From positions 1 through 64,000 of the forward strand of contig CAJWLO010000008.1 in NCBI GenBank assembly GCA_913043235.1: a DNA stretch of 64,000 bases, in the 5' to 3' direction. A program made the translations under genes and the position numbers. This stretch comes from an uncultured Fidelibacterota bacterium (GTDB lineage Bacteria; Fidelibacterota; Marinisomatia; Marinisomatales; UBA1611). Shown one piece after another: positions 24,298-43,412 of the stretch. The notes below the pieces were generated by a model, which saw only the letters and a list, made by a program, of their open reading frames with translations, made no database searches and was not told the DNA's origin. How positions within the stretch are numbered: the first letter of the stretch is position 1; each line of letters opens with the position of its first letter.

Positions 24298-25401
24298 CTA
24301 CGTCTTAGAGTTAAAAATAGCTTTTCCAGATTGTTTATTGAAAATTGAATAATTTTTTTCATCAAAAACCAGACTAATTTTATCACCAACATTTAATCCA
24401 TCATAAGGGTTTGCTATTGCTGTGATTCGCTGGTTATTAGAAGCTATATATGCAAAAGTTTCTCTACCCATTGGCTCTATTAAATCAACATTACCCTGAA
24501 ATAAACAATCTTCATTATCATGCTGAAAAACTTTTAAACTTTCTGGACGTATGCCAATGGTGAAAGCTTGATTCATATCAATCTGATTAAGTATATATTT
24601 TTTATTAATTGGAATTTTAAATAGGTCGGAAGAAAAATGATATTGATCTTGTTTTAATATTATTTCACCATCAATAAGATTTATTTGGGGAGACCCAATA
24701 AAACTTGCAACAAAGAGATTATTTGGGTTTTTATATGCTTCAATAGGAGTGGCTAATTGCTGTATCTCTCCGTTATTCATTATACAGATACGCTGTCCAA
24801 GAGTCATTGCTTCAGTCTGATCATGTGTAACATAAATCATTGTTGCACCAAGTCTATCATGTAGTTTTTTCAATTCTACACGCATAACTGCACGCATTTT
24901 TGCATCAAGATTAGATAATGGTTCATCAAAAAGAAAAACTTTCGGTTTCCTGACAATTGCTCTTCCTAATGCAACACGCTGTCTCTGCCCTCCGGAAAGT
25001 GATTTTGGATATCGATCAAGATAACTATCAAGTTCAAGAATATTAGCAGTTTCCTGTACTCTTTTATTAATATTAGACTTTTCCCATTTTCTTAGCTTAA
25101 GACTAAATGCCATATTTTCATAGACCGTCATATGAGGATAAAGAGCATAATTTTGGAATACCATTGCAATATCTCGATCTTTTGGCTGAAAGGTATTGAT
25201 TAATTTTTTATCAATATAAATTTCACCGCTAGACGGTTCTTCTAACCCTGCTATCATTGAAAGGGTTGTGGATTTTCCACATCCTGAAGGTCCAACCAAA
25301 ACCATAAACTCTCCTGATTGAACTTCTAGATCAAGATTGCTAACAGCCAAAGTATTATCTGGAAATACTTTCGTTATTTTTTTCAGTACTAAATCACTCA
25401 T
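24298..25401 (-). CDS. ABC transporter ATP-binding protein (MsmK/UgpC type)
   Basis: 367 aa; VGPSGCGKSTTLSMIAGLEEPSSGEI, SLSGGQRQRVALGRAIVRKPKVFLFDEPLSNLDAKMR, YVTHDQTEAMTLG; C-terminal TOBE region. Confidence 0.96.
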   Translation of the reverse strand: MSDLVLKKITKVFPDNTLAVSNLDLEVQSGEFMVLVGPSGCGKSTTLSMIAGLEEPSSGEIYIDKKLINTFQPKDRDIAMVFQNYALYPHMTVYENMAFSLKLRKWEKSNINKRVQETANILELDSYLDRYPKSLSGGQRQRVALGRAIVRKPKVFLFDEPLSNLDAKMRAVMRVELKKLHDRLGATMIYVTHDQTEAMTLGQRICIMNNGEIQQLATPIEAYKNPNNLFVASFIGSPQINLIDGEIILKQDQYHFSSDLFKIPINKKYILNQIDMNQAFTIGIRPESLKVFQHDNEDCLFQGNVDLIEPMGRETFAYIASNNQRITAIANPYDGLNVGDKISLVFDEKNYSIFNKQSGKAIFNSKT

Positions 25402-25413
25402 ATCACAACAATC

Positions 25414-26280
25414 CTATTCTTTAATTCCGCCAAGCATAATGCCTTTAGAAAAATATTTTAAAACAAATGGAAAGACTATCATGATAGGCACAACAGTAAT
25501 TACTACTGTTGCAGCCTTGATTGATTCAGGAGCCAAGCCAATAAAATTATCACGTAACATAGCCCATTCCTGTTCAATTACAATCCTCTGTAAAAAAGCC
25601 TGTAAAACCACTTTACTATCCGAATTCATATAAATAACAGCATCATACCATGAATTCCAATGAAATATAGTCTGAAACATAGCGACAGTAGCAAGGATTG
25701 GGCGGGATAAAGGAAGATATATCCTAAAGAAAATATACCATTCGGTTGCACCATCTATCATAGCTGCCTGGTGCATACTATCAGGAATGTTTTGAAAATA
25801 ATTTCGGATCAAGATTACATTAAATGCACTTATGAGCCCTTGGACAAGATAAACCATACGATTGTCTAATAATCCAATACTATGGTATAGTAAATAAATT
25901 GGAACCATTCCACCGCTGAATAACATAGTAAACAAAACAAACAAAAATAATGGTTTACGGTGTGGCATATCTTTACGAGATAGCGGATATGCACATAACG
26001 CAGTGAAAAATACAGAGATTGGCACACTAATCAGAACCCGTGCAATACTATTCAATAGACCAGATAAAAGATGGGGTTTGGAGAACACTGCTTTATAGGC
26101 TGTCAGATCGAATGACCTGGGATATAAAAAGAAACCTCCCTGAGAAGCATACACTTCTGAACTAAGGCTCAATACAAGACAGTATAATAAAGGATAAAAC
26201 ATTGTAAAGGACAGTACAAGGAATAATGATATATTGATAACATCAAATAATCTGGAACCAAATGACTCTTTAATCATCAT
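25414..26280 (-). CDS. Carbohydrate ABC transporter permease (LplC/YtcP-like)
   Basis: 288 aa, 6 TM; EAA-loop-like MHQAAMIDGATEWYIFFRIYLPLSRPILATVAMF; C-terminal GIMLGGIKE. Confidence 0.92.
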   Translation of the reverse strand: MMIKESFGSRLFDVINISLFLVLSFTMFYPLLYCLVLSLSSEVYASQGGFFLYPRSFDLTAYKAVFSKPHLLSGLLNSIARVLISVPISVFFTALCAYPLSRKDMPHRKPLFLFVLFTMLFSGGMVPIYLLYHSIGLLDNRMVYLVQGLISAFNVILIRNYFQNIPDSMHQAAMIDGATEWYIFFRIYLPLSRPILATVAMFQTIFHWNSWYDAVIYMNSDSKVVLQAFLQRIVIEQEWAMLRDNFIGLAPESIKAATVVITVVPIMIVFPFVLKYFSKGIMLGGIKE

Positions 26281-27188
26281 TAATAAAGTCCTTGTTGACC
26301 TTGTGTAAGCCGTTTTGAAATTGAGTTTGATGTCATAATCAATATTACGGCCACAACTGATTTAAACATTCCTGCTGCAGTTGCAATCTCAAAGTTTAAA
26401 TTTGTCAGCATGCGTAAAACATAGGTATCAATAATATCTGCTACATCGTATACAAGTGGATTATACATATTGTATATCTGATCAAATCCAGCACTTAGAA
26501 AACCGCCCATACTTAAAATAAGTAGAGTGATCATGGTCGGTTTTAATTGCGGTAGTGTTATGTAAAATATTTGCTGGAAGCGATTTGCTCCATCTATTTT
26601 TGCCGCCTTATATAATTCAATCGGAATTGCCGAGATGGATGCCATATATATAATGGCTCCAATACCTATACCCTTCCAAATATCTGTAGAAATAATGACT
26701 ACAATAAACCAAAAATCATCGCTGAGCCAGTTAATAGGTTTATCGACCCCTATCCAAGAGATTATTTCGTTAGCAGGGCCACTGTTTGAAAAGATTAGTC
26801 TGAAAATACTTGCTAAAATAACCCAGCTAAATAAGTAGGGTAACAAGCTCAAACTTTGAAATCCTTTTCTTAAAAAACCAATCCTAATTTCATTTAACAA
26901 TAGCGCAAAAACTACGGGTGCAAAAAATCCTAGTATGATTTTTATTATGCTAATAAACAAAGTGTTTTTTATGACCAATAAAAATTCACTTCCACTAAAA
27001 AGCGTCTCAAAATGCTGAAATCCAACCCATGGGCTTCCAAGTATACCATCCCGGATACTATAATCTTTGAAAGCTATCATCAGTCCCCCCATTGGGATAT
27101 AATCAAAAATAAAATAATAAACTGCACAGGGTAAAAACATTAATGCCAGAGCATTATTTTTTGGAGATTTAAAATTATTAGTGTCCAT
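26280..27188 (-). CDS. ABC transporter permease (LplB/YtbP-like)
   Basis: 302 aa; ALMFLPCAVYYFIFDYIPMGGLMIAFKDYSIRDGILGSPWVGFQHF; ELYKAAKIDGANRFQQIFYITLPQLKP. Confidence 0.92.
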   Translation of the reverse strand: MDTNNFKSPKNNALALMFLPCAVYYFIFDYIPMGGLMIAFKDYSIRDGILGSPWVGFQHFETLFSGSEFLLVIKNTLFISIIKIILGFFAPVVFALLLNEIRIGFLRKGFQSLSLLPYLFSWVILASIFRLIFSNSGPANEIISWIGVDKPINWLSDDFWFIVVIISTDIWKGIGIGAIIYMASISAIPIELYKAAKIDGANRFQQIFYITLPQLKPTMITLLILSMGGFLSAGFDQIYNMYNPLVYDVADIIDTYVLRMLTNLNFEIATAAGMFKSVVAVILIMTSNSISKRLTQGQQGLY

Positions 27189-29033
27189 CTAATTCACGCT
27201 ACTTAATAATAGGTCAATCTTTTTTTTATTCTCCCTTGCATCATCAAGATGAATTCCCATTCTATTAATAACTAATTCCCCACCTAGTCTATAAAATTCA
27301 TCTACATACAATTCCCAGATCTTAAAATCCTTTTGTCCTGTAATAAACTCAGTAAAATTAGTTTGTTGGAAAGCGATTAGTTTATTTACTCTAGCTACTA
27401 TATCATGAGGAGCCTGGTAAACCGCATCCCCAAAAGCACATGGATCTCCCCATTCAATTCGATTATGATCTTTTTGAAATTTTTTTAGTCCAGCAGGCAT
27501 ATATTTATCGACGAAATCATCTTGCATGGGAACTGTCACTAAATAGCCTTGTCTTTTATCATAAAGGTGCCAAGCAAGACCTTCACTATTTCTTCTATAT
27601 GAATATGTACCAAATGGTTCAAGTCCGATTGTCGTTCTATTATCCCCTTCGCCTTGCCATTTCCAGTGCAAACCTTCCTTCCCTAAGCTACAGTGTAATA
27701 AGAGTTCTTCATCATTTAACATGGTTTCCATTATTCTTAGCCAGCGAATCACCTTGGCAGGTGTTTCTCTCATGTGATTCCCAAACACATAGTATCCACC
27801 ATAATTGCCACCTACCCTACCATATGTTCTGTGGCCTCTATGTCCATCTGGCCCTGCTGGTGCATATCCTGCGGTCCAAAGGTTTCGGTATCGATCTTTA
27901 TTATTTTCAATTAATTGTTCTGCATCCTCCTTTGAAAATCCAATTAATTCAAATAGTTCTAAATCGCGATGTCGCTGTAGTGCGGCCATTGTTTTAAGTC
28001 GTTCACTATTTGGCTCAAGCTCGGCATAAAGAGACCAATGAGAAATGTAACCTGTAATTCCTGCATAAAGTTTTGCTAATACTTCGCCCATCCAATTGTC
28101 TGTTACAAAATCAGGATGTATGTATTCCTTTTCATACCAATCATTTAATTGTTTCAGGGCTAAAAAGGATCTCTCATCAATTCCACCCCAGATCAAATTA
28201 TCTCTATCTATTTTCCAATTGAATGGCTGAATATCATACGCACCAAAAATCTCGGTGAACATCCCACTCCTCCATGAGCTGACATCTCCACTCATAGCCC
28301 AGGTTGGTTTTGCATTATTAAGAACCAATCTTTTTTGTTCTGGTGATAAGAATTTCTCAAAATCATGGATAAAACTTCTGGCATCTGGTTTATCATTTTT
28401 GAATTTTTCAAAAACAAAAGAATATTCTTCAAGATTATCTGGAATCCCTTCAAAACCAACGGCCTTTAGCCAATCTTTACGCCAAATACCGATTTTTGGA
28501 TACGCATTTGTAGGTCTAGGAATTGGAATCCCATAATTATTTTCATTGTATCGGCAACCCATCCATGAATGCATTCCCCATTCTTGAATAATTTTTGTAA
28601 TTGTTGGACTATGGTGAGCTAATACGGAAAGAGGAACTGGCATCACAAATCCATGCTTTATGGAACTGGATAATTGTCCAGAAAATTCTGTGAATATATC
28701 AGGAATGGACCCTGAAGCTTTCACCAGAGCACCCTTTCTTTCATAAACAGAGGGCGATATGAGATCGTAGTTGAGTGTTACGTTAAATCTTTTTTCAAGT
28801 ATCCTTTTTGCAAACGCATCCTCCTTGAGAAGGGCATCAGCGGACCATCTGGCATCGCGATGCATTAATAGGTTAAATGTCATATGCTCATCAGGATCAT
28901 CAACAACATTTGACCAATTCACAGTGTCATTTAAGGCATTATTTTTATTAAACCAACTAGGTGAAAATAATAGGAATGTAAGTACGATCAGAAAGAATAG
29001 TGCAAAGGCAGTAAATCTTACTTTTGGAGTCAT
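27189..29033 (-). CDS. Extracellular solute-binding protein (LplA-like), N-terminal TM anchor
   Basis: 614 aa encoded directly before the permeases; RKDWLKAVGFEGIPDNLEEYSFVFEKFKNDKPD typical of large LplA-type SBPs; no Cys lipobox at the N-terminus. Confidence 0.85.
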   Translation of the reverse strand: MTPKVRFTAFALFFLIVLTFLLFSPSWFNKNNALNDTVNWSNVVDDPDEHMTFNLLMHRDARWSADALLKEDAFAKRILEKRFNVTLNYDLISPSVYERKGALVKASGSIPDIFTEFSGQLSSSIKHGFVMPVPLSVLAHHSPTITKIIQEWGMHSWMGCRYNENNYGIPIPRPTNAYPKIGIWRKDWLKAVGFEGIPDNLEEYSFVFEKFKNDKPDARSFIHDFEKFLSPEQKRLVLNNAKPTWAMSGDVSSWRSGMFTEIFGAYDIQPFNWKIDRDNLIWGGIDERSFLALKQLNDWYEKEYIHPDFVTDNWMGEVLAKLYAGITGYISHWSLYAELEPNSERLKTMAALQRHRDLELFELIGFSKEDAEQLIENNKDRYRNLWTAGYAPAGPDGHRGHRTYGRVGGNYGGYYVFGNHMRETPAKVIRWLRIMETMLNDEELLLHCSLGKEGLHWKWQGEGDNRTTIGLEPFGTYSYRRNSEGLAWHLYDKRQGYLVTVPMQDDFVDKYMPAGLKKFQKDHNRIEWGDPCAFGDAVYQAPHDIVARVNKLIAFQQTNFTEFITGQKDFKIWELYVDEFYRLGGELVINRMGIHLDDARENKKKIDLLLSSVN

Positions 29034-29045
29034 CCTTTCGAACGG

Positions 29046-30188
29046 CTATGAACTTTTATTAATTTGATTGTTGAGCGATTGAAAATAACGTTTTTGGTTC
29101 TGGATATGATCGATATTTTCCTCATGTAACTTTAACCTTAGATCATGAAGGTCTCTTACCATGGGGACGAGATCTACCCTGTTTGCTTCATTAATTGTAT
29201 TTATCCAATCTTTACGTATTTCCTTGGCGCCATTAAGAGCACCAGATATAGCCCCAACCATTCCTGCGATCGAATCATTGTCCCTGCCGTAATTTGATGC
29301 CCCAAAAATACTTTTTTCGAAATCCCCGGATGCTATAATTAAAAATCCAAGTGCTATTGGCAATTCTTCAATACTATGTTCCCTGCTTGGACGCCAATTA
29401 TTGGTCCCATTTCCCCGGTTCTTTCCCTTTTCAGCAGAACCATCAAAAGGACGTATGCAATCACGCAGTGGTATTATACTTTCCTTCCAGTCGCTCAAAT
29501 TTTCTGCACAATCTACAATAGATTTAATTGCATTCTTTGTTCCATCTTTTGCTAAATCAATAGCAACTTCAATCACTGATTCAACAGAAGCATTAGGACG
29601 AAATGCTTCAGCGGTGCAGGCTGCCATCACACCGGCCGCTTCCAGACCATAACTGTGTTGATGTGCACTAAAAATATCAATTGCTTCAGAATAAGCCTTT
29701 TGTGGATCGCAAGCATTAACGATGCCTACCGGTGCAGAATACATCGCAGCACCACAATTAACCATGTTACCAATACCACCCTGTCTCGGTTCTGCATTCG
29801 CCAGATGGAGTCTCATAAATAACCATTTTTCAGGGTAAAATAATCTCTCTAATAGAGCGATATTTTTACCTAGCTCTGGTATCCATCTCGAAGAATCAGT
29901 TATGAGAGGAATAATTCTTTTTGCGAACTCATATGAATCTAAGTGACCTCCATGCTCAATATATGCCCTGGAAAGAAGCTGGATCATGTGACTGTCATCA
30001 GTATAACGACCATCTCCTTTCCCGATATCATTTGGACCTTCCCAGTTTTCTACAAAATCAGTGATATACCCATAGCGTTCTCTAATTTCGTCGGGATAGT
30101 GCCACTCTGCTGGAGCACCCATTGCATCTCCAACAGCTCCCCCATAAACACATCCCATAATTTTATCCAGTAAAATACTTTTTTTCAT
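29046..30188 (-). CDS. ADP-ribosylglycohydrolase-family protein (DraG-like)
   Basis: 380 aa; MGCVYGGAVGDAMGAPAEW, GRYTDDSHMIQLL, SNYGRDNDSIAGMVGAISGAL metal-site motifs. Confidence 0.9.
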   Translation of the reverse strand: MKKSILLDKIMGCVYGGAVGDAMGAPAEWHYPDEIRERYGYITDFVENWEGPNDIGKGDGRYTDDSHMIQLLSRAYIEHGGHLDSYEFAKRIIPLITDSSRWIPELGKNIALLERLFYPEKWLFMRLHLANAEPRQGGIGNMVNCGAAMYSAPVGIVNACDPQKAYSEAIDIFSAHQHSYGLEAAGVMAACTAEAFRPNASVESVIEVAIDLAKDGTKNAIKSIVDCAENLSDWKESIIPLRDCIRPFDGSAEKGKNRGNGTNNWRPSREHSIEELPIALGFLIIASGDFEKSIFGASNYGRDNDSIAGMVGAISGALNGAKEIRKDWINTINEANRVDLVPMVRDLHDLRLKLHEENIDHIQNQKRYFQSLNNQINKSS

Positions 30189-30211
30189 CTATATGACTCC
30201 TAAAATATAGA

Positions 30212-31780
30212 CTAAGATGGTACAGAGACTCGACCTGTGTAAGAGATTATCCTACCCAAACTTATATCTGTATCAGTGGCATCAGACGCACATCTTCCAG
30301 TGACCATAATTTTAATTGTGTGTTCTCCATCAGCTAAATTGGTAACCCATGCAGCAGTAGACTGTGCCGAATTGTTAAGTTCCTTTCGAACATACATATC
30401 CCTCGTTTGAACCAACTCCCCATCAATAAATACTTCAAGTATACCACTTTTATACTGTTGGTTACCCTGGACAAAAATGCAATTCCCTGAAAATTCAGCC
30501 TCAAGATAATCTCCTGCCTGGTTTGATGAATAAAACCTGGGCCTCCCTTTGTGATCTGTTGTCAGCTTCCAGTCTCCGTGCCACTTGAGTTCTGGTGATA
30601 AGTCAGGCTCAATGGTATAAATATCTTGAAATTGCAAATTGGAGAAAGAGACTTCAAGTTCACCACTAAAATTATATATTTGTGGCTTAATTATGATCTT
30701 ATCACTATCAATCTTCCCACCATTTTCCATAATATTTTTAATTGCTAATTCATAACTCAGATCAGTGGCAGAGTTAATGGAAAGGCTTGTGTAGTTATAG
30801 TCCCTACCCATGTAAGGAAGAAGTTCACTTTTGACAGTTTCTGGTAGCATCTCATATCCGTAAATAACACCCATGACACCCCCACAGTTAGCAACATTAG
30901 AATCAGTATCCTGACCACAACGGGTACATATTTTTATTGATTCCAAGAAATCACCCTTGCCATACAAAAGTCCAATTAATATGTATATACCATTAAAGTG
31001 TCCCTGAATATTAAATAGTCCTATTTTGTTACCTTGCTTTGACGGAGGATCTGATTTCGCCCATGGACAAAGATCTTTATTATATTCTTCTTCAAATTTT
31101 TTCCAGGTTATGCGCCAATTGTCAGGATCTTCATCATACCATTCGAGCAGTTTTTTTATCATCACAGAGTATTTACAATTATGAGGAATTACTTTTAACG
31201 ATTTACTTATTAAATCCACAATATTATTATCAAGATAAGCATGTGAGTAAAGAGCAGCCAGAAAAGCTCCTGCGTAATAGCCATCTCCAAAATTCATAAT
31301 ATGCCCTACTTTATCTGAAATTTTCTGTGATGACTCAGATAGTCCAGGCGAAATAATACCTATAAAATCACACTCAATCTGAAAATCAATATCGTCAGCA
31401 TGAGGATTATAGTATGGGTGACCTGATAGACCTGGTGGGATACCTTCTAATAGATTCTGTCTCGCCTGCCCATTAGCATGCCATAACATAAAATCTTTTT
31501 TCCGGAAGACATCTGCAAAATTATCCTGAGTAGCATGCAAACCATGGTCACGTAATATTTCAAGGAATGCCATATTCGTATATAAATCATCTTCATTGTG
31601 TAGCCATATTTTAGGAGCATCAGGATGTATATCAAGACTACCCTCGTATATCTCTCCCTGGGCATCAAACTCCATTGGTTCACCCATTATTGCACCGTAG
31701 GATTTTCCTACCCAGGCACCTAAAATTTTATCTCTCAATGAAGACTTTGATAATGCGAAATATTTGTTGCTGTTTTTCAT
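30212..31780 (-). CDS. ADP-ribosylglycohydrolase-family protein, divergent N-terminal motif, with C-terminal beta-rich domain
   Basis: 522 aa; LRDKILGAWVGKSYGAIMGEPMEF, NEDDLYTNMAFLEIL in place of TDDT, CGQDTDSNVANCGGVMGVIYG; extra C-terminal region HGDWKLTTDHKGRPRFYSSNQAGDYLEAEFSGNCIFVQGNQ...LEVFIDGELV. Confidence 0.85.
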   Translation of the reverse strand: MKNSNKYFALSKSSLRDKILGAWVGKSYGAIMGEPMEFDAQGEIYEGSLDIHPDAPKIWLHNEDDLYTNMAFLEILRDHGLHATQDNFADVFRKKDFMLWHANGQARQNLLEGIPPGLSGHPYYNPHADDIDFQIECDFIGIISPGLSESSQKISDKVGHIMNFGDGYYAGAFLAALYSHAYLDNNIVDLISKSLKVIPHNCKYSVMIKKLLEWYDEDPDNWRITWKKFEEEYNKDLCPWAKSDPPSKQGNKIGLFNIQGHFNGIYILIGLLYGKGDFLESIKICTRCGQDTDSNVANCGGVMGVIYGYEMLPETVKSELLPYMGRDYNYTSLSINSATDLSYELAIKNIMENGGKIDSDKIIIKPQIYNFSGELEVSFSNLQFQDIYTIEPDLSPELKWHGDWKLTTDHKGRPRFYSSNQAGDYLEAEFSGNCIFVQGNQQYKSGILEVFIDGELVQTRDMYVRKELNNSAQSTAAWVTNLADGEHTIKIMVTGRCASDATDTDISLGRIISYTGRVSVPS

Positions 31781-31820
31781 ACAACTTATACGATAAAAAT
31801 AATTTAAAGTTTATTGAATT

Positions 31821-34121
31821 TTATTTTGGACTAAAGCTGTACCAGCCAGCATCTACAATGACTTCATCGATCATAACATCATCCTGCATTAGTTTTACCA
31901 AGACTTTGTGAGGATAGTCAAGATCAAGATCAGATAAATTTATCGTAGCATCATTCCCGCTAAGTTCCATCTTCTCTTCTTCCATCATATTTAAATTATC
32001 CACCGTGTTTATCTGGATACGGGAATTCTCTATCGGGTTTGTTACACGAATCTTTAGTGAACCATCTGCCTGATTCACTTTCAGGTTCTCAGGCATACCC
32101 ACCACACAAGAAATCTTATCTGCCGCCTCCTCAAGAAAAACCAGTCTTGTCTTCCCATCTACTACTTCTGTGGAAAGGGCACGATGGTTCCAGACATCAA
32201 CATAGTGCCAATTTTCAGGATGATCTACCTCTAGGAAAGGTCCAATTAATCGACGAACTCTGCCACGGAGATCTCTACCCCCAACCCCGTGAAACTTGGG
32301 CGCTGATCCTTCATTAAATGTAGCCTCTCTTGATACATTATCGTGATCATTTTGATATACAGGATAGACACATTTATTTGGCACAGGGAATGCATTAATA
32401 TAAATATCTTCTCTCAGGGATTTTACCAAAGGAATTGGGTTATCAGTTAAATACGCATCACTGTTTTCACGAATTATACGACTATAGCGATGAACCATAA
32501 TTCGCTCTATCCAAGTATAACTGTTAATCTCACCAAAGATATCTTCCCAGACAATGAAACCAGTGCCATTAAACAAAGAATTATGCACGAGTGCCTGTCT
32601 ATTCCTACTATTTCGGCTAATATTATGCACGTTATGCTTGGGAAGAAGAAAACGAAACAAATCAATACTAGGCATAACATTAGTTTGAGTACCAACCTGG
32701 TTCCAACTTCCTGTCACAAGCTGCGCATCCGCAAGACCGGGTCTTCCCTCTGATGCAAAAACATTGTCTGGATTGACTGCATCCAGTGCCTTTCGGAAGG
32801 CTATTTCACTATCCTTCATAGTATCAAGAAATATCCCGTCCGCACCAATAGCCTTCGATATCTTTGCCTCTTCGTCATAGTGATTCTGGTTCTTGACCAT
32901 GATATCCCATGGTTTATAGGGTAAATAGACCTGCACTCCTCTTTCATGAGCCTTGTCTACCAATGACTTCAGCCCATTTAAACCACCGGGTAAATCCTCG
33001 TACATAGCAAACTGGTTTCGGTTATCCACACCCATTCGGGGATAATCATGCCAAAGAAGCATGTAATCGTATCCGCCAAAGTTTACCTCTCCTTCATCTA
33101 AAAATCGGTTAATATCAAACTCATTGGTCTCTGGATTGTATATATCATGACCATAAAGAAACGTAAAATGCGACACAAATTGTTTTCTGTAGTATTCTTG
33201 AACTGGGCGATTGTAGTATTTAAAATCAAAGTTTGAGTATATATGTTTTTTGTAGGCATCAAATGCAGCATGCCAGTCCCCTTCATGGGGTCCTATGCGG
33301 CAATCCATTACAACTGTTTCTTCTCCAGGCTCCTGAGTAAGCCGAAACTCTTTCTGATGAAAATCAGCCTTATCATCAAAAATCCAGCTGAATGAAGTAT
33401 TTATTACATGAAAATAAACTCCTCTATTTTCTTTACGGTTAAAAACATCTGTGGGGACTTGCGGATCACTATAATTTGGAAACAGATAAAACTTATAATC
33501 ATCTTGATTATTGATACAGTAGGTAGGTAAGCTGGTAGCATACCTACGAAAATATGTTTCTGTTGGTAAAAAAACATTTAGATCCTCTTTTTTTCCAATT
33601 TTAAGATCCTGAATGACGGGAAACCTAATATTTGCGCTTCTGGTTCGCGGTTCTCGATAAGACCTGCCACCAGTCGCGGTACTAGTGACTACAGATTTCC
33701 AGTAAAGTTCGTGATCTTCACCAATCGAAAAATTCTGCACTATTACCCAAGAGTTTTCCACATAGCTTGATTGTTGACGTATAGAAACTCCTTTTCGCCC
33801 GTCTTTGGTAAATTCTTCTACATTAAATAATTGAAACCCAACATGATCTAATGCCCATGGCTGGGGTGAAGATGTGAAAATCAGATCTTCATTATTTTTC
33901 ATGTAATCGTATCCAGTAGATTTGTCTAACATACTGGTAAGTTTTACAGCATTACCTATTGCTATTGTGTATCGATAACTATTGTTCTCCAATACAACTT
34001 CCTTAACCTGATCCTTGTCAGGAATAAATTTTACATAAGGCTGAGCAGACATTATGGAATAATGAAATAGTGATATTAAGAGAACAATGGGAATTGGCAT
34101 ACTCACCCTAATGCATTTCAT
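31821..34121 (-). CDS. Secreted TIM-barrel glycoside-hydrolase-like protein, paralogue C
   Basis: YDYMLLWHDYPRMGVDNRNQFAMYEDLPGGLNGLKSLVDKAHERGVQVYLPYKPWDIM, AIGADGIFLDTM, NVFASEGRP. Start placed at MKCIRVSMPIPIVLLI (34121) rather than the track start 34154, which overlaps the upstream gene. Confidence 0.75.
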   Translation of the reverse strand: MKCIRVSMPIPIVLLISLFHYSIMSAQPYVKFIPDKDQVKEVVLENNSYRYTIAIGNAVKLTSMLDKSTGYDYMKNNEDLIFTSSPQPWALDHVGFQLFNVEEFTKDGRKGVSIRQQSSYVENSWVIVQNFSIGEDHELYWKSVVTSTATGGRSYREPRTRSANIRFPVIQDLKIGKKEDLNVFLPTETYFRRYATSLPTYCINNQDDYKFYLFPNYSDPQVPTDVFNRKENRGVYFHVINTSFSWIFDDKADFHQKEFRLTQEPGEETVVMDCRIGPHEGDWHAAFDAYKKHIYSNFDFKYYNRPVQEYYRKQFVSHFTFLYGHDIYNPETNEFDINRFLDEGEVNFGGYDYMLLWHDYPRMGVDNRNQFAMYEDLPGGLNGLKSLVDKAHERGVQVYLPYKPWDIMVKNQNHYDEEAKISKAIGADGIFLDTMKDSEIAFRKALDAVNPDNVFASEGRPGLADAQLVTGSWNQVGTQTNVMPSIDLFRFLLPKHNVHNISRNSRNRQALVHNSLFNGTGFIVWEDIFGEINSYTWIERIMVHRYSRIIRENSDAYLTDNPIPLVKSLREDIYINAFPVPNKCVYPVYQNDHDNVSREATFNEGSAPKFHGVGGRDLRGRVRRLIGPFLEVDHPENWHYVDVWNHRALSTEVVDGKTRLVFLEEAADKISCVVGMPENLKVNQADGSLKIRVTNPIENSRIQINTVDNLNMMEEEKMELSGNDATINLSDLDLDYPHKVLVKLMQDDVMIDEVIVDAGWYSFSPK

Positions 34122-34125
34122 TCTA

Positions 34126-34947
34126 TTAGAGATCTTTAACGCATCGGAATCCAATACTTGAACTACGATTAAGAGCGGGGGTCATGAGCCAAAATTTTAA
34201 ACGCTGGTAGTTTGGGACAGGACCTCCTTGGATATACCAACGGCTTCCCTTAGCAAAATAATGACTACCACCGCGTATCCAGCACCAATAATGAAACCCA
34301 TCGGACTGCTTTGAGTCGGTCCATTCCCATACATTTCCTGTCATGTCCAGAACTCCATAGGGACTGGCCCCTTCCGGATAACTGCCTACAGGCTTTGTGC
34401 CTTTCGAATCCATGTTAGCCTTATCTGCATCATATATATTACCCCATGGCCAGGCTCTTCCATCTGTGCTTTGGGCTGCCAGTTGCCACTCTTCTTCAGT
34501 TGGAAGACGCTTTCCTGCCCATGCTGCATATGCTTTTGCATCTTCTATAGAGACCCAGTATACAGGATGATTCGCTTCCCCTGACGGATAGGTCTCATTC
34601 TTCCAGTGCTTTAAAAAATTCTCGGACCATTTAGGTTTGTATCCGCTGGCATCCATAAACTCCTTAAACTGAGCGTTGGTTACTTCTGTTTTGTCCATAA
34701 GATAACCAGGAGTCTCAAACTGATATGTGTTAGTATATCGAATACCTGCATCATCCTGGACAAGACTGTCCAGTGTCAAACCTTCAACCCAACGGTATTC
34801 CACATGAAAAGTGTAATCTGTGGAAGGTATTTGAACCATATCTTCTTTAGTGTTTGTTGTCATTCGTCTATCCATAAATAGTATTATTAGAATAATTATT
34901 CCTATCATAATGATAAAATATTGAAAGACTTTTTTCATTATGCTCAA
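34126..34947 (-). CDS. SUMF/FGE-fold protein (formylglycine-generating-enzyme-like), membrane-anchored, copy B
   Basis: 273 aa; YLMDKTEVTNAQFKEFMDASGYKPKW, HPVYWVSIEDAKAYAAWAGKRLPTEEEWQLAAQ, MTGNVWEWTDS, GFRCVKD. Confidence 0.9.
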   Translation of the reverse strand: MSIMKKVFQYFIIMIGIIILIILFMDRRMTTNTKEDMVQIPSTDYTFHVEYRWVEGLTLDSLVQDDAGIRYTNTYQFETPGYLMDKTEVTNAQFKEFMDASGYKPKWSENFLKHWKNETYPSGEANHPVYWVSIEDAKAYAAWAGKRLPTEEEWQLAAQSTDGRAWPWGNIYDADKANMDSKGTKPVGSYPEGASPYGVLDMTGNVWEWTDSKQSDGFHYWCWIRGGSHYFAKGSRWYIQGGPVPNYQRLKFWLMTPALNRSSSIGFRCVKDL

Positions 34948-35750
34948 TTCTCCATAAAGTGGCCTGACTGGACCATATGCATTGGCTGATAATGGCCATA
35001 GTCACGTACTTTTTTAAATGGCTTATTGGAAACGGCATTGTATGATGCAATATATCCCCAGCGGTGTTCTTTGCTTAGGTTCGCATCCGATCGATGGAGA
35101 AGATTGCAATGAAAGACGAGTGCGTCACCTTCTTCCATCTCAACATATTTTGCAGTATAGCGATTCTCTGCTTCATTTAGGTATTCACTATCAATAATTG
35201 TTTGATCGTTCTCCCTAATATGGTTCAGTCTTCCAAGCTTGTGCGATCCATTAAGTACCTGCAGGCAACCATTTTTCTCGTGAGATTTATCCAGTGCTAT
35301 GTAAATACTCAACATGTCTGGTGCCAATAAACCATAATTATGCCAATAACCATAATCTTGATGCCACTCCCAGGCTCCACCTTCACCAGGATTTTTCATT
35401 GTCATCTTGTGACTATAAATATACACGTCATCTCCAATAATCTCTTTAGCAAGAATCACTAAACGCTCATCTCTTGCGATAAACCCATAAAAATCATCAT
35501 CTGCAGTATACCACATTTTTAGGAGCGTTGTGTTTCCATCTTTATCTGCTTTAATCATGACCTTATCATTTCTCAGATCTTTTTCTAAATCATCCCGAGC
35601 TCTTGAGCGGAATTCATCAATCTCGGTACTGCTAAAAAAATTAGTCCGCAAAAAATATCCATCCAATGCATATTGTTCTTTTTCTTTTTCAGACGGTTTC
35701 AACATTATGGATATCTGATTATTTTTCATTGAAACCATACCATCCAGCAT
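34944..35750 (-). CDS. Phytanoyl-CoA dioxygenase (PhyH)-family Fe(II)/2OG oxygenase
   Basis: 268 aa; GGAWEWHQDYGYWHNYG (HxD), GDALVFHCNLLHRSDANLSKEHRWGYIASYN (distal H and R). Confidence 0.9.
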   Translation of the reverse strand: MLDGMVSMKNNQISIMLKPSEKEKEQYALDGYFLRTNFFSSTEIDEFRSRARDDLEKDLRNDKVMIKADKDGNTTLLKMWYTADDDFYGFIARDERLVILAKEIIGDDVYIYSHKMTMKNPGEGGAWEWHQDYGYWHNYGLLAPDMLSIYIALDKSHEKNGCLQVLNGSHKLGRLNHIRENDQTIIDSEYLNEAENRYTAKYVEMEEGDALVFHCNLLHRSDANLSKEHRWGYIASYNAVSNKPFKKVRDYGHYQPMHMVQSGHFMEN

Positions 35751-38049
35751 CTACAATGACTTGATCGATCATTACATCATTCTGCATTAGTTTTACTAGC
35801 ACTTTGTGGGGATAGTCGAGGTCAAGTTCAGACAATTTGATGGTTGCATCATTACCGCTAAAATTCATTTTTTCTTCTTCCATCATTGTGAGATTATGAA
35901 CGGTATTTATTTGAATACTAGATTCGGCTATGGGATTCGTTACCTTGATATTTAATGAACCACCTATCTGCTCTACTGCCAGATTTCTTGGCATTCCGAC
36001 AACACAAGATATCTTGTCAGGTGCCTCTTCAAGAAAAACAAGTCGGGTCTTACCGTTTACCTCCTCAGTACCAACGTTTCGATGATTCCAGACATCAATA
36101 TAGTGCCAGTCTTTTGGGTGATCTACATCAATAAAGGAACCAATCAGGCGATACACTTCTCCCGATTCATCCCTACCACCTTTACCACGAAATGCTGGCG
36201 CTGAACCCTCATTAATTGTAGCTTTTCGTGATACATTCGCATAATCAATCTGATATGTTGGATATACGCATTTGTTGGGAGCTGGAAAAGCATTGATATA
36301 AATATCCTCCCTCAAATCTCGAACAAGAGGAATAGGACTTTCTGTTAAATACGCATCACTGTTCTCTCGAAGAATCCGGCTGTAGCGATGAATCATAATT
36401 CGTTCATTCCAAGTGTAATTATTAACCTCACCAAATATGTCTTCCCAAACAATAAAACCAGTTCCATTAAACAAAGCATTATGGATTAACTGCTCTCTGT
36501 CCCTTGAACCACGACTAATATTATGTACATTGTGCCTGGGAAGTAAAAAGCGAAAAAGGTCTACATTCGGCATTCTATTTGTTGCTGAGGCAGTCTGGTT
36601 CCAACTGCCTGTTACTAACTGAGCACCAGATATGCTTGGACGTCCCTCGGATACAAAAACATTATCTGGGTTAACCGCATCCAAAGCCTTACGGAATTCG
36701 ACTGCTCCCTCTCCCATAGTATCTAAAAAAATTCCATCCGCCCCAATGGCCTTGGATATACGTGCCTCTTCCATATAATGATTCTGGTTCTTGACCATAA
36801 GATCCCAAGGTTTGTAAGGTAGATAAACTTTTACTCCCCTGGCATGCGCCTTGTCAACCATCAACTTTAAGCCTTTTAGCCCACCAGGCAAATCTTCATA
36901 CATTTTGAATTGGTCGCGGTTATCTACACCCATTCGAGGGTAATCATGCCAAAGAAGCATGTAATCATATCCACCAAAGTTTGCTTCGCCCTCATCCAAG
37001 AATCGGTCAATGTCAAAAACATTGGTTTTAGGGTTGTATATATCGTGACCGTATAAGTACGTGAAATGCGATAACAACTGTTTTCTATACTGTTCCTGAA
37101 TTGGGCGTTCATAATATGTAAAATCAAATGTCGAATAAATGTGCTTTTTATAGGTATCAAAGGCAGCATGCCAGTCCCCTTCATGGGGACCAATGCGACA
37201 GTCTATTACCACGGTCTCTTCGCCCGGCCCTTGAGTTAGACGGAATTCTCTCTGATGAAAATCATCCTTATTTTCAAAACTCCAATCAAAATTTGTTTCC
37301 AGAACATGAAAATAGACCCCTCGATCTTCAGATAGATTATAAATATCAAGAGGGATCAACGGATCATAGCTATTAGTTAAATAAAAAATGAAATCATCTC
37401 GATCATTGATACAATACCTAAGTTCTCCCTTGCCGTAGCTTGATCCAGGAGGTCCTAGCGTCCGTTGGGTTGGTAGAAAAATATTTATATCTTCCCTATC
37501 TCCAATCACCAAATCTTGCATAACAGGAAATCTAAGATCTGCGTGTCTGGTACGTGGCTCACGGAAAGAGCGGCCTGGAGTATCACTAATAATCGTGGAT
37601 TTCCAATAGAGCTCGTGATCCTCACCAAGAGAAAAGTCCTGAACAATCACCCATGAATTTTCTACATAGCTTGATTGCTGGCTGATTGAAACTCCTTTCC
37701 GACCCTTATAACTGATCTCATCAACTGTAAACAGCTGATATCCCGTATTATCTAAAAATCTGTGCCAAGTAGTTGGTCTAAGTGATGAAGTAAAAATCAG
37801 ATCTTGGTTGTTTTCCACATAATCGTAACCTGTAGATTTTTCTAATATGCTCTTTAATCGTACAGCATTATCAATAGCAATAGTATACTTATAAGAACTG
37901 TTTTCCAGCACAATTTCTTTAACCTGTTCCTTATTTGGAACAAAAGTTACCGTTGGCTCGGCAGAAACATTAGCCAACATCAATACAAAAATAATACCTG
38001 GTAAAGAAAGGATTTTCCTTCTAATAACAATTAAAGCTATAACTGACAT
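35719..38049 (-). CDS. Secreted TIM-barrel glycoside-hydrolase-like protein, paralogue B
   Basis: Same architecture as 31821..34121; AIGADGIFLDTMGEGAVEFRKALDAVNPDNVFVSEGRP. Start adjusted from 38088 to 38049 (MSVIALIVIRRK) to remove overlap and give a plausible signal peptide. Confidence 0.75.
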   Translation of the reverse strand: MSVIALIVIRRKILSLPGIIFVLMLANVSAEPTVTFVPNKEQVKEIVLENSSYKYTIAIDNAVRLKSILEKSTGYDYVENNQDLIFTSSLRPTTWHRFLDNTGYQLFTVDEISYKGRKGVSISQQSSYVENSWVIVQDFSLGEDHELYWKSTIISDTPGRSFREPRTRHADLRFPVMQDLVIGDREDINIFLPTQRTLGPPGSSYGKGELRYCINDRDDFIFYLTNSYDPLIPLDIYNLSEDRGVYFHVLETNFDWSFENKDDFHQREFRLTQGPGEETVVIDCRIGPHEGDWHAAFDTYKKHIYSTFDFTYYERPIQEQYRKQLLSHFTYLYGHDIYNPKTNVFDIDRFLDEGEANFGGYDYMLLWHDYPRMGVDNRDQFKMYEDLPGGLKGLKLMVDKAHARGVKVYLPYKPWDLMVKNQNHYMEEARISKAIGADGIFLDTMGEGAVEFRKALDAVNPDNVFVSEGRPSISGAQLVTGSWNQTASATNRMPNVDLFRFLLPRHNVHNISRGSRDREQLIHNALFNGTGFIVWEDIFGEVNNYTWNERIMIHRYSRILRENSDAYLTESPIPLVRDLREDIYINAFPAPNKCVYPTYQIDYANVSRKATINEGSAPAFRGKGGRDESGEVYRLIGSFIDVDHPKDWHYIDVWNHRNVGTEEVNGKTRLVFLEEAPDKISCVVGMPRNLAVEQIGGSLNIKVTNPIAESSIQINTVHNLTMMEEEKMNFSGNDATIKLSELDLDYPHKVLVKLMQNDVMIDQVIVDAGWYGFNEK

Positions 38050-38056
38050 GAATCGT

Positions 38057-40399
38057 CTAATCAACATCAAAATTAAACCATCCGGCATCTACAATGACCT
38101 GATCGATCATTACATCTTCCTGCATTAGCTTTACCAAAACTTTGTGAGGATAGTCAAGATCAAGATCAGATAAATTTACCGTAGCATCATTCCCGCTAAG
38201 TTCCATCTTCTCTTCTTCCATCATATTTAAATTATCCACCGTGTTTATCTGGATACGGGAATTCTCTATCGGGTTTGTTACACGAATCTTTAGTGAACCA
38301 TCTGCCTGATTCACTTTCAGGTTCTTGGGCATCCCCACAACACAAGACATCTTGTCTGGGGCTTCTTCAAGAAAAACAAGACGGGTCTTGCCATTGACAT
38401 CTTCGGTACCAACATTTCTATGATTCCAGACATCTATATAATGCCAGTCTTTTGGATGATCTACATCGATAAAAGGACCAATCAGGCGGGGTGTTTTCCC
38501 TTCCCAATCTTTTCCACCTTTTCCACGAAACCTAGGTGCTGAGCCATCATTAATAATCGCTCTTCTAGATACACTTTCATAGTCATTCTGATAAGTTGGG
38601 TAAACACATTTACTGGATACAGGAAATGCATTAATGTAAATATCATCACGTAAATCTCGGACAAGAGGAATAGGATTTTCTGTTAAATAGGCATCGCTAT
38701 TTTCCCGAAGGATTCTACTATATCGATGGATCAAAATGCGCTCATTCCAGGAATATTGATTGATCTCACCAAAAATATCCTCCCAAACAATAAACCCAGT
38801 TCCATTAAACAAGGCATTATGGATCAACTGCTCCCTGTCCCTTGCCCCCCGATTAATATTATGTACATTGTGCTGGGGTAGTAAAAACCGAAACAAGTCC
38901 ACATTAGGCATGGTATTTGTCGCTGACCCAGACTGATTCCAGCTGCCAGTGACCAACTGTGCATCTGCAATGCTGGGCCGACCTTCTGAAACGAAAACAT
39001 TGTCTGGATTGACTGCATCCAGTGCCTTGCGAAATGCAACCTCACTATCTCTCATAGTATCCAGAAAAACTCCATCTGCTCCAATAGCCTTGGATATCCG
39101 CGCTTCTTCCGTATAATGATTCTGGTTCTTTACCATAATATCCCACGGCTTGTAGGGAATATATACATGCACTCCCCGCGCATGGGCCTTATCCACCATA
39201 AGACGCAGACCTGCTAGGCCTCCCGGCAAATCTTCGTACATGGAAAACTGGTTCCGGTTGTCTACACCCATGCGTGGATAATCATGCCAAAGAAGCATAT
39301 AGTCGTATCCACCGAAGTTTTCCTCTCCTTCATCTAAAAATCGATCAATCTCAAACTCATTGGTCTTCGGGTTATATATGTCATGACCATATAGAAAGGT
39401 AAAATGGGATACCAGTTTCTTTCGATACTCCTGCTGCACTGGACGTTCATAATATTTAAAATCAAAGGTCGAATAGATATGCTTTTTATAGGCATCAAAG
39501 CCAGCGTGCCAGTCCCCTTTATGGGGACCTATGCGGCAATCCATTACAACCGTCTCTTCACCAGGCTCTTGGACTAGTTTAAAGTCTCGATTTGTCAGGT
39601 CTTTTTTGTCTTCAAAGCTCCAATCAAATCCGGTATCCAGAACATGAAAGTAGATTCCCCTATCCTCTGCGAGATTAAAAACATCTGTTGGAACCTTTGG
39701 GTCTGTAGTATTTGTGAGATAAAATCCAGGAACTCTGGTCGCTTCAAATTCTGTTGAAGATTCAACGTATTGTGATTTACCGGCATCATCTTTATTATCT
39801 ATGTAATACCTATTGCCAGAAGGATAAAAATAACTCATCCCCTGTTTATCACCAATTATTAGATCTTGAATAACAGGAAATTTAACTGTGGATGGTCGGG
39901 CACGTGGGACTCGATAAGAGCGCCCTCCAGTTGCAGTATTGGTAATAGTAGATTTCCAATAAAGTTCACTATCATCCCCCAGAGAAAACTCTTGTACAAC
40001 AACCCAGGAATTCTCCACATAGCTTGATTGCTGCCAGATGGAGACACCCTTTCTTCCATCTTTGCTGACTTCATCAACTGTAAATAATTGGTACCCAACA
40101 TTATCTAACCATCTTCCTTTAGGATAGCAAGAAGTAAAAATAAGTGGCTCATTATTTTCTAGATAATCGTAACCAGATAACTTGTCGATTATACTTACAA
40201 GCCTGACAGCATTATCGATCGTAATGGTGTACTGGTGACTTGTATTTTCCAATATAATCTCTTTGACCTGTTCCTTATCTGGAACGTATTTTAATGTTAT
40301 CGTTGATTTTGCCATTAATTGCCCTAATGTTAATGATAATAAAACTGGTATAGCAGAAACGCTAAATACCTTACAAAACAATCTAATTACTTTTTTCAT
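38057..40399 (-). CDS. Secreted TIM-barrel glycoside-hydrolase-like protein, paralogue A
   Basis: 780 aa; signal MKKVIRLFCKVFSVSAIPVLLSLTLGQLMA; same core motifs as the other two copies. Confidence 0.75.
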   Translation of the reverse strand: MKKVIRLFCKVFSVSAIPVLLSLTLGQLMAKSTITLKYVPDKEQVKEIILENTSHQYTITIDNAVRLVSIIDKLSGYDYLENNEPLIFTSCYPKGRWLDNVGYQLFTVDEVSKDGRKGVSIWQQSSYVENSWVVVQEFSLGDDSELYWKSTITNTATGGRSYRVPRARPSTVKFPVIQDLIIGDKQGMSYFYPSGNRYYIDNKDDAGKSQYVESSTEFEATRVPGFYLTNTTDPKVPTDVFNLAEDRGIYFHVLDTGFDWSFEDKKDLTNRDFKLVQEPGEETVVMDCRIGPHKGDWHAGFDAYKKHIYSTFDFKYYERPVQQEYRKKLVSHFTFLYGHDIYNPKTNEFEIDRFLDEGEENFGGYDYMLLWHDYPRMGVDNRNQFSMYEDLPGGLAGLRLMVDKAHARGVHVYIPYKPWDIMVKNQNHYTEEARISKAIGADGVFLDTMRDSEVAFRKALDAVNPDNVFVSEGRPSIADAQLVTGSWNQSGSATNTMPNVDLFRFLLPQHNVHNINRGARDREQLIHNALFNGTGFIVWEDIFGEINQYSWNERILIHRYSRILRENSDAYLTENPIPLVRDLRDDIYINAFPVSSKCVYPTYQNDYESVSRRAIINDGSAPRFRGKGGKDWEGKTPRLIGPFIDVDHPKDWHYIDVWNHRNVGTEDVNGKTRLVFLEEAPDKMSCVVGMPKNLKVNQADGSLKIRVTNPIENSRIQINTVDNLNMMEEEKMELSGNDATVNLSDLDLDYPHKVLVKLMQEDVMIDQVIVDAGWFNFDVD

Positions 40400-40472
40400 C
40401 TGATGACCTTTTTAAAAATTATAGAGAATGCATTAATGCTCTAATTAAAACTTCAAGAAATACAATAGAGCG

Positions 40473-41288
40473 CTATGTGGCATCCTTGACACATCTGAAG
40501 CCAATACTTGGGCTTCGGTTCAAGGCAGGTGTCATCAACCAAAACTTCAGTCTCTGATAGTTGGGCACGGGACCGCCCTGGATGTACCAGCGACTGCCCT
40601 TTGCAAAATAATGACTACCACCGCGTATCCAGCACCAATAGTGGTTTCCATCCAATTGTTTTGAATCGGTCCATTCCCATACATTCCCGGTCATATCCAG
40701 AGCACCATAGGGACTGGCTCCTTTAGGATAACTGCCTACAGGCTTTGTGTCTTTCGAATCCATGTTTGCCTTATTTGGATCATATAGGTTACCCCATGGC
40801 CACGCTCTTCCATCAGTACCCTGGGCCGCAAGCTGCCACTCTTCTTCTGTTGGAAGACGCTTTCCCGCCCATGTTGCATAGGCTTTTGCATCTTCAATAG
40901 ATACCCAGTAAACAGGATGATTTTCTAGACCTCTAGGATAGGTACCATTTTTCCAGTGCTTTAAAAAATTCTTGGACCATTTAGGCTTGTATCCGCTGGC
41001 ATCCATAAACTCCTTAAACTGTGCGTTGGTCACTTCTGTTTTGTCGATATAATAACCAGATGTTTTGAACTCTGTTGTATTAGAATAACGAATCCCTGCA
41101 TAATCCTGAATAAGACTATCCAGTGTTAAGCCTTCAACCCAACGGTATTCCACATGAAAAGTATAATCTTCAGCCTTTACAAGGACCATATCCTCATGGC
41201 CTTCCGAAACCACAATATTAACAATAGATAAAAATAATATTAAATGTATATAAAGATATTTATGGTGGTTTACTGTATTTAAAAGCAT
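40473..41288 (-). CDS. SUMF/FGE-fold secreted protein, copy A
   Basis: 271 aa; highly similar to 34126..34947 (YYIDKTEVTNAQFKEFMDASGYKPKW, GKRLPTEEEWQLAAQGTDGRAWPWGN). Confidence 0.9.
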   Translation of the reverse strand: MLLNTVNHHKYLYIHLILFLSIVNIVVSEGHEDMVLVKAEDYTFHVEYRWVEGLTLDSLIQDYAGIRYSNTTEFKTSGYYIDKTEVTNAQFKEFMDASGYKPKWSKNFLKHWKNGTYPRGLENHPVYWVSIEDAKAYATWAGKRLPTEEEWQLAAQGTDGRAWPWGNLYDPNKANMDSKDTKPVGSYPKGASPYGALDMTGNVWEWTDSKQLDGNHYWCWIRGGSHYFAKGSRWYIQGGPVPNYQRLKFWLMTPALNRSPSIGFRCVKDAT

Positions 41289-41325
41289 GTAATAACCCTC
41301 CTCCCAGTTAGGTATTAATAATTAT

Positions 41326-42249
41326 TTATTTCGAAATTTCTTGAATGCGTGCGTCAACTTCACCTCTTTTAGGATATGATTCAATGGTTTCCCTGTATTG
41401 GGTTGATAAGGATGCTGCTGTGATGCCTAAAGCTATGGATTCTTCTATGGATTTATCTTCACTGAGACCTACAACTAATCCAGAATTAAATGCATCACCG
41501 GCACCAACGGTATCTAAAACAGTGACACTGAGTGCTGGGAAAGATCTAACTCCTGCTTCAGACGCCCATAAGACTCCTTTTTCACCAAGTGTCAGGATCA
41601 CATTTTCAGCACCTAATTCCAATAATCTCTCGGCAACACTCTCATCATCTATTGGATCATTAGGATCAAGCCCAAGACAGACTCTTCCTTCAGTTTCATT
41701 AGGAGTAAGAGCAAAAACAGATTGTAAATTTTCTTTCGTTAGATCAACGGCTGGTGCGGGATTAAGCACTGACTTTACACCGTTTTCCTTAGCCAATTTA
41801 GATGCATGTATAGCAGTCTCAAATGGTATTTCTAGGGGCGATAGAATAACATCAGATTGTTTAATTATTGAACTATTAGAATCGATATCTTCTGGTGAAA
41901 ATTCGCCATTCGCTGCAATATCTATGATAATTATATTAGATCCAGAAGAACTTGATACAATAAAACCAACAGCAGTCGGTAATTTATCGGAATATAAGAC
42001 ACCGCGATCGCTAACATTTTCTGTTTTAAGTAATTCTATAAATGATTCTGCGAATGAATCTCTGCCTATCTTTCCCATGAAAGTTGAGTTACCGCCTAGC
42101 CTGGATATACAGGCTGCCATGTTCGATCCTTTGCCACCATGTGTAGTATGATAATTGTGACCGATAAGGGTTTCTCCTTCTAATGGAATTCGGTCTGTAT
42201 CCATTACAAGGGCTACAATATAGCTGCCTACTACCGTTACATTACCCAT
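41326..42249 (-). CDS. Ribokinase-like PfkB-family sugar kinase
   Basis: 307 aa; VGSYIVALVMDTDRIPLEGETLIGHNYHTTHGGKGSNMAACISRLGG; DTVGAGDAFNSGLVVGL. Confidence 0.92.
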   Translation of the reverse strand: MGNVTVVGSYIVALVMDTDRIPLEGETLIGHNYHTTHGGKGSNMAACISRLGGNSTFMGKIGRDSFAESFIELLKTENVSDRGVLYSDKLPTAVGFIVSSSSGSNIIIIDIAANGEFSPEDIDSNSSIIKQSDVILSPLEIPFETAIHASKLAKENGVKSVLNPAPAVDLTKENLQSVFALTPNETEGRVCLGLDPNDPIDDESVAERLLELGAENVILTLGEKGVLWASEAGVRSFPALSVTVLDTVGAGDAFNSGLVVGLSEDKSIEESIALGITAASLSTQYRETIESYPKRGEVDARIQEISK

Positions 42250-42299
42250 TCAGGAACCTTTTTAGATTTTAATTTATATTTCCTAATCTCCTATAGAAT

Positions 42300-42329
42300 A
42301 AAAATGGGTAAGAAGACCTACCCATTTTT
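42300..42329 (-). terminator. Rho-independent-type terminator for the TonB/PorV operon (possibly bidirectional)
   Basis: Perfect 11-bp stem AAAAATGGGTA / TACCCATTTTT with 8-nt loop, 27 bp past the stop of 42356..43402. Confidence 0.85.
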
Positions 42330-42355
42330 ATTTAAATAAAGTATTTGGTATCTAA

Positions 42356-43402: not shown

Positions 43403-43412
43403 TTAAATTGTT

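Follow-up and report, generated by a model that had tools for sequence, protein, structure and literature searches.

Gene content of the locus

The window analysed here, the 64,000 nucleotides at positions 1 to 64,000 of contig CAJWLO010000008.1 from an uncultured Fidelibacterota bacterium (assembly GCA_913043235.1), carries an array of genes that may direct the uptake and breakdown of a ribose-containing compound. At its centre are 13 minus-strand open reading frames (ORFs) between positions 24298 and 42249, spaced by -32 to +73 bases, in agreement with the closely packed same-strand set described in a sequence-only reading of this DNA. That reading also placed a convergent gene downstream of the set and a strong terminator upstream, and both can be seen: the ORF list gives a plus-strand gene at 23143-23985, and an intrinsic terminator on the minus strand (42298-42335) has a hairpin at 42300-42329 of -19.1 kcal/mol (z = -6.8), with no shuffled sequence equally stable. 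Scans for promoters and terminators in general gave matches no more numerous than in shuffles.

In the direction of transcription, the set encodes a PfkB sugar kinase (41326-42249), an exported SUMF-domain protein (SUMF1, 40473-41288), two secreted paralogues (TIM1, 38057-40399; TIM2, 35719-38088), a PhyH-family Fe(II)/2-oxoglutarate dioxygenase (34944-35750), a second exported SUMF-domain protein (SUMF2, 34126-34947), a third paralogue (TIM3, 31821-34154), two proteins of the ADP-ribosylglycohydrolase (ADPRH) fold (ADPRH2, 30212-31780; ADPRH1, 29046-30188) and four components of an Lpl-type ATP-binding cassette (ABC) importer (24298-29033). Pfam and NCBIfam searches recovered the families named in the sequence-only reading; the three "TIM-barrel" paralogues are the exception, with a match in neither library. 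Beyond the terminator, which lies between the PfkB gene and a gene for a PorV-like outer-membrane protein (42356-43402), the same strand encodes a secreted protein with no assigned family (43413-45434) and a TonB-dependent receptor (45466-48555). The plus strand carries, divergently, genes for a LacI-family regulator resembling RbsR and CytR (19993-21090), a predicted permease of the GRP/RhaT superfamily that is probably a ribose permease (21115-22122) and the ribokinase RbsK (22147-23058).

Recurrence in other genomes

A scan of 84,980 species yielded six loci with close relatives of the TIM proteins, and profile searches added further loci. The recurring set consists of the TonB receptor, the secreted protein, the PorV-like protein, PfkB, a RhaT-like permease, SUMF and TIM. 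About nine core loci, which come from several phyla, conserve it as a unit; their genes are approximately 52-72% identical to those of the window (52-62% for the TonB receptor, 58-62% for the secreted protein and 53-62% for the PorV-like protein). Because this gene set recurs in other phyla, as a check suggested in the earlier reading had asked, the locus is not a chance grouping. However, the unit does not end at the terminator as had been proposed. In relatives it also takes in the TonB, secreted and PorV-like genes, and since the genes at 42356-48555 travel with the locus in other phyla, we ruled out the terminator as a border of the conserved unit.

In two genomes (G061 and G684), the genes form one block, with a LacI gene (47% identity to that at 19993) at its head and orthologues of the window's permease and ribokinase at its end. 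It follows that the divergent plus-strand genes of the window are most likely part of the system. A version of low identity occurs in one genus of the same phylum (g83), with a PorV-like protein, ribokinase, two ABC permeases and a binding protein, along with two ADPRHs, esterases, a SUMF::TIM fusion and, nearby, an ABC ATPase. Genome G504 (locus L060) encodes, in this order, ribokinase, permease, SusC, SusD, ADPRH and SUMF::TIM, where SusC and SusD were recognised by eye from their N-termini. Neither 60 genomes related to that of the window nor the viral contigs searched yielded a TIM protein. The absence from relatives indicates that the locus is patchy and may have been acquired horizontally. 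The contig also carries a molybdopterin gene, for which one genome of the order has a homologue (59%), a finding that leaves undecided whether the contig is native.

The palindrome GNACAATCGATTGTNC occurs at three sites with at most two mismatches in 64 kb, against 0.28 expected, and all three are intergenic although ORFs cover 92% of the window. One candidate LacI-type operator, GGACAAACGATTGTCT, is on the plus strand between the AldEpim and LacI genes (19726-19741), and a perfect palindromic candidate, GAACAATCGATTGTTC, lies upstream of the TonB gene at a distance of about 130 bases (48687-48702). This arrangement supports one regulon spanning both strands. The third operator-like site is found at 18283, upstream of a major facilitator superfamily (MFS) gene, and among the sister loci a single weak operator-like site precedes LacI in L098.

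ADP-ribosylglycohydrolase-fold proteins

The usual annotation for proteins of the ADPRH fold is the reversal of protein ADP-ribosylation. ADPRH1 (380 amino acids) and ADPRH2 (522 amino acids, with a C-terminal CE2_N-like region) score 154.7 and 105.3 bits with PF03747, above its gathering score of 26.2 bits, and carry the metal-binding aspartate motifs, which in ADPRH1 are an intact YTDDS and RDNDS. Family membership and intact motifs are thus consistent with a DraG/ARH-type reversal of protein ADP-ribosylation unrelated to sugar import. Nevertheless, we consider this role very improbable. ADPRH1 falls far below the curated equivalog cut-offs for DraG (46.2 versus 337 bits) and Tri1 (50.8 versus 490 bits), homologues in equivalent loci are exported and reach four copies per locus, and the locus contains no gene recognised as an ADP-ribosyltransferase. 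The low scores and exported homologues led us to reject DraG-type regulation, and the signal peptides or lipoboxes of sister-locus homologues likewise disfavour an action on ADP-ribosyl-protein only, which the sequence-only reading had named as an outcome that would count against its proposal.

The location of these proteins tracks the type of sugar importer. Where the locus has a RhaT/GRP permease (G061, G705, G684, G662 and G504), the ADPRHs start with a signal peptide or a lipobox, and where it has an ABC importer (the window and g83) they have neither, a pattern that spans about four independent lineages, with export called from N-terminal sequences by a simple script and by eye rather than by a trained predictor. 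Neither window protein appears to be exported: ADPRH1 is without a signal peptide, and none would fit ADPRH2, since the open frame preceding its start has room for only about ten residues. In a tree, this cytosolic ADPRH2 clusters with the secreted homologue of G705 (support 100/100). The simplest reading is that ADPRH acts wherever the intact substrate is, which would be outside the cell if free sugar is imported and inside if an oligosaccharide is imported. Such tracking fits a catabolic glycosidase and not a regulator of protein ADP-ribosylation. Moreover, in the genomes searched with PF03747, almost all ADPRH genes are inside these loci (two of two in the window genome, four of four in G061, one of one in G504, two of two in G243 and four of five in G238). 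Exceptions are G366, whose sole ADPRH is about 22 kb away from its fusion gene, and G062, where neither of the two ADPRH genes shares a contig with the TIM fragment.

The permease at 21115 provides a second line of evidence. We sought it in 297 genomes of the phylum of G504 and read nine further loci, and a ribokinase is near the permease orthologue in six of the nine (none is nearby in L112, L116 and L117). The permease and ribokinase pair is adjoined by nucleoside hydrolases in L109 and L115, by ADPRH in L114 and L060, and by both in L111 and the sister locus L006, with the nucleoside hydrolases of the nine loci recognised by a DTD-x-DD motif in their N-termini; in L110 and L113 neither type of hydrolase was recognised. 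In these Bacteroidota-type genomes, nucleoside hydrolase and ADPRH therefore appear to be alternative ribose-releasing partners of one permease and kinase. Because their location follows the importer and they alternate with nucleoside hydrolases beside this pair, the ADPRH-fold proteins most likely act as ribosidases. Our literature search, with the terms used, found no paper linking ADPRH to polysaccharide utilization loci (PULs), and a search on ribofuranosidase found no paper containing that word.

Two kinases and the identity of the sugar

RbsK (376 and 362 bits) passes two curated ribokinase cut-offs (341 and 299.65 bits) and keeps the ribose-site asparagine and aspartate. By contrast, the PfkB kinase of the minus-strand set, although a match to PF00294, scores 268.9 bits against the cut-off of 299.65. 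Its GSYIVALV motif has isoleucine and alanine in place of N14 and D16 of E. coli RbsK, residues that we take to contact ribose in the RbsK structure. The motif, as GSY[IV]VALV, is common to all seven PfkB orthologues listed. Hence, the earlier identification of this protein as a plain ribokinase is not supported, and the true ribokinase lies outside the span that had been described. The altered PfkB is predicted to differ in specificity and probably phosphorylates a second sugar.

The loss of N14 and D16 could also mean that all of these genes are devoted to some other furanosyl or deoxy sugar, with the ADPRH-fold proteins cutting that bond instead of a riboside. Consistent with such a sugar, DeoC of G061 passes its curated cut-off, G662 encodes an RpiB-DeoC fusion, a microcompartment shell-like protein and an acylating aldehyde dehydrogenase that would suit 2-deoxyribose-5-phosphate, and the permeases of sister loci are RhaT-like. 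However, in the window, G061, G684, G504 and g83, ADPRH occurs together with a ribokinase whose ribose-site residues are retained, and we therefore judge this alternative unlikely.

In L095 (10455-15594), genes for an RpiB-DeoC fusion, a CcmP-like shell protein and an acylating aldehyde dehydrogenase adjoin ADPRH, TIM and SUMF genes, possibly forming a microcompartment for a deoxyribose-type phosphate. Proteins resembling the UROD/MtaA-CmuA methyltransferase family are encoded near PfkB in three sister loci (L006, 5816-6973; L092, 16123-17253; L097, 13869-15032), where they might provide a demethylation step.

Putative glycosidases and their SUMF-domain partners

TIM1, TIM2 and TIM3 are secreted proteins of 777-789 amino acids that are 72-75% identical to each other. 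Their TIM domain gave no sequence match in Pfam, NCBIfam or the PDB, the last searched by single sequence and by profile. A model of TIM1 built from a 31-sequence alignment (predicted local distance difference test score, pLDDT, 85; predicted template modelling score, pTM, 0.86) comprises an N-terminal beta-sandwich, a (beta/alpha)8 barrel and a C-terminal beta domain; an earlier model from nine sequences (pLDDT 53) was not used in the fold search. The label "TIM-barrel" is thus borne out by the modelled fold, while no family in either Pfam or NCBIfam corresponds to it. A Foldseek search of the PDB with the TIM1 model placed a Flavonifractor galactosaminidase at the top (E = 3e-16), along with glycoside hydrolase (GH) families GH101, GH36, GH129 and GH97. 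Residues D380, D420, D447 and E472 are invariant in alignments of 26 and 31 sequences, and in the model the candidate catalytic D447 is just after strand 4 and E472 at the end of strand 5. TIM1 and its paralogues share with the GH101/GH129 and GH36/GH97 alpha-glycosidases the domain order, the strand-4 aspartate and strand-5 glutamate, and the fold similarity, but they are only 8-13% identical to them and have a partner or fusion of the formylglycine-generating enzyme (FGE) fold. We infer a catalytic layout like that of GH101/GH129, and the TIM proteins would constitute a putative family of retaining alpha-glycosidases without a sequence match in these databases.

SUMF1 and SUMF2 match PF03781 at 146-148 bits and in this respect resemble FGE (also called SUMF1). 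FGE needs a copper-binding cysteine pair after its RGGS motif. In their translations, both window proteins read RGGSHYFAKGSRWY at the RGGS loop, where the cysteine pair is absent, and they differ further from FGE in being beside or fused to a putative glycosidase. A role in sulfatase maturation, which the label SUMF would suggest, was rejected in view of the missing cysteines and the TIM fusions elsewhere. Since fusions of TIM with SUMF occur in many genomes, it is most reasonable to regard the SUMF protein as a subunit of the glycosidase.

Genes for fusion-type TIM proteins of 930 amino acids adjoin galactose genes (GalK/GalT/GalM-like, as in the Leloir pathway), GH127-like genes and DUF2961/GH172 genes, with several of these neighbours named from their N-termini and not by profile search. 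The TIM family as a whole is thus not ribose-specific. Within the window, the final block of about 150 bases in the TIM1/TIM3 alignment is 99% identical, compared with 71% over the whole genes, as a result of either recent gene conversion or an assembly artefact. In L097 (8775-10992) the TIM gene of G684 is in two frames, which may represent a frameshift, a sequencing error or a pseudogene.

A possible regulon for a ribose-containing glycan

We lean, by a modest degree, towards the view that these genes form a LacI-controlled regulon for the uptake and breakdown of a ribose-containing glycan or glycoside. The substrate would be captured by the TonB receptor, the secreted partner and the PorV-like protein (42356-48555), and the exported TIM glycosidases with their SUMF-fold partners would cut alpha-linked sugars from it. 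The Lpl-type importer would then carry the remaining ribosyl oligosaccharide or glycoside to the cytosol, where ADPRH1 and ADPRH2, as ribosidases, would free ribose for phosphorylation by RbsK (22147-23058). The altered PfkB would phosphorylate a second sugar, probably the one released by TIM. The analysis establishes the gene content and its conservation, the protein locations as read from N-termini, the predicted folds and the residue changes; from these we infer the substrate, the bond cut, the order of steps, the role of PhyH, the pairing of PfkB with TIM and the control by the LacI regulator at 19993. The dedicated catabolic system with a ribosyl theme that was first proposed is supported as to its secreted enzymes, importer, ADPRHs and sugar kinase, but not as to a ribokinase within the span, SUMF proteins for sulfatase maturation or the terminator as border, and the span to which it was assigned does not include the regulator, the outer-membrane receptor or the true ribokinase.

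Several observations weigh against this regulon. The kinase within the minus-strand set is probably not a ribokinase, and the sugar released by TIM may be a hexose, given the galactose and GH127/GH172-like neighbours of the fusion-type relatives. The exact operator core is absent from the other fetched loci. No PF01156 nucleoside hydrolase match was found in the window genome; this genome, however, is a draft of 137 contigs (83% complete, with a contamination estimate of 6%), so that statements of absence from it are weak, and the contamination estimate is itself a point of caution. In addition, four Rhodothermales-type loci have TIM, SUMF and PfkB but no ADPRH in the locus, and three of the four genomes are without any PF03747 protein, which indicates that ribose release is not obligatory for the TIM module.

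These Rhodothermales-type loci, which also carry no GRP permease or RbsK with their TIM module, raise the prospect of two separate, adjacent systems that are loosely co-regulated at most: TIM, SUMF and PfkB for a glycan with alpha-linked hexose or deoxysugar, and LacI, permease, RbsK and ADPRH for ribose scavenging. Several other genomes have the ribose module without TIM, and the two kinases differ at their sugar-site residues. Nevertheless, TIM/SUMF and ribose genes occur in one block in G061, G684, G662 (C201), g83 and G504, and operator-like sites accompany both modules in the window, so we regard a division into two systems as a serious but rather doubtful explanation.

Among known systems, the single regulon would work most like rus of Bacteroides thetaiotaomicron. 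We take rus to combine the transport of ribose with its phosphorylation in a single PUL. It is the ribose-utilization PUL BT2803-2809 (PMC12596196), and the likeness extends to the ribokinase of the window block and to G504, where ribokinase, permease, SusC, SusD, ADPRH and SUMF::TIM are joined. The window differs from rus in lacking both SusD and a nucleoside hydrolase and in having, as additions, an Lpl-type importer, ADPRHs in the cytosol, a second kinase, the PorV/TonB trio and three TIM/SUMF glycosidases. In E. coli, the yegTUV operon combines a nucleoside-type transporter, an ADPRH and a PfkB kinase (PMC10819704), a trio that the locus matches at the level of protein families only; yegTUV has no secreted enzymes, whereas the window has an ABC importer, TIM/SUMF, a second kinase and the PorV/TonB trio. 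The yegTUV repressor responds in vitro to ADP-glucose (PMC10819704), and by analogy with the proposal for that operon the locus might salvage ADP-ribose, NAD or ADP-glucose. This seems highly improbable, since neither a Nudix gene nor a pyrophosphatase gene was recognised here, an extracellular glycoside is indicated by the TonB uptake and the exported glycosidases, and the function of yegTUV, which has been linked to glycogen, is itself unsettled (PMC10819704).

The ADPRHs described here differ from DraG, ARH1 and ARH3, with which they share the PF03747 domain and metal-binding motifs, in that homologues are exported, some with a CE2_N-like C-terminal region, and lie in glycan-utilization blocks. 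The way in which ADPRH location tracks the importer makes this a testable case that many ADPRH-fold proteins are sugar-releasing glycosidases. The TIM/SUMF pair represents a putative glycosidase family that profile searches place in several phyla and that has no counterpart by sequence in Pfam, NCBIfam or the PDB, and the partnership suggests a role for SUMF-domain proteins that are unable to activate sulfatases. The more ambitious proposal, that ADPRH-fold ribosidases, exported or cytosolic, and sequence-novel alpha-glycosidases, complexed with or fused to an FGE/SUMF-fold partner, are two new kinds of carbohydrate-active enzyme jointly degrading a ribose-containing polymer or glycoconjugate, is one we advance tentatively and would not yet bet on. 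The substrate, once found, would reveal an unrecognised ribose-containing nutrient.

Importer components and neighbouring genes

The importer comprises a UgpC/MsmX-like ATPase with MalK OB and TOBE_2 domains (24298-25401), LplC-like (25414-26280) and LplB-like (26280-27188) permeases with BPD_transp_1 domains, and a membrane-anchored, putative solute-binding protein of 614 amino acids (27189-29033). Distant homologues of the two permeases in g83 loci are 27-28% and 29-31% identical, respectively. The two BPD permeases agree with an Lpl-type importer, but their 614-residue partner matches no binding-protein family by sequence (no Pfam or NCBIfam family and no meaningful PDB match), and its role is suggested by position. 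This protein and the PhyH dioxygenase (PF05721) were seen in the window only, among the loci compared.

The convergent gene at 23143-23985, which follows the ribokinase, encodes a PanB-like protein that scores far below the PanB cut-off (91 versus 207.55 bits). Farther away, an FGGY kinase and a sugar isomerase (XylA-like by eye) are encoded at 7619-10569, in the same catabolic island. A protein of 1310 amino acids with DUF6807, DUF7133, HEAT and cytochrome c regions (10637-14569) has orthologues of 54-56% identity near TIM in the four Rhodothermales-type loci and may belong to the same regulon.

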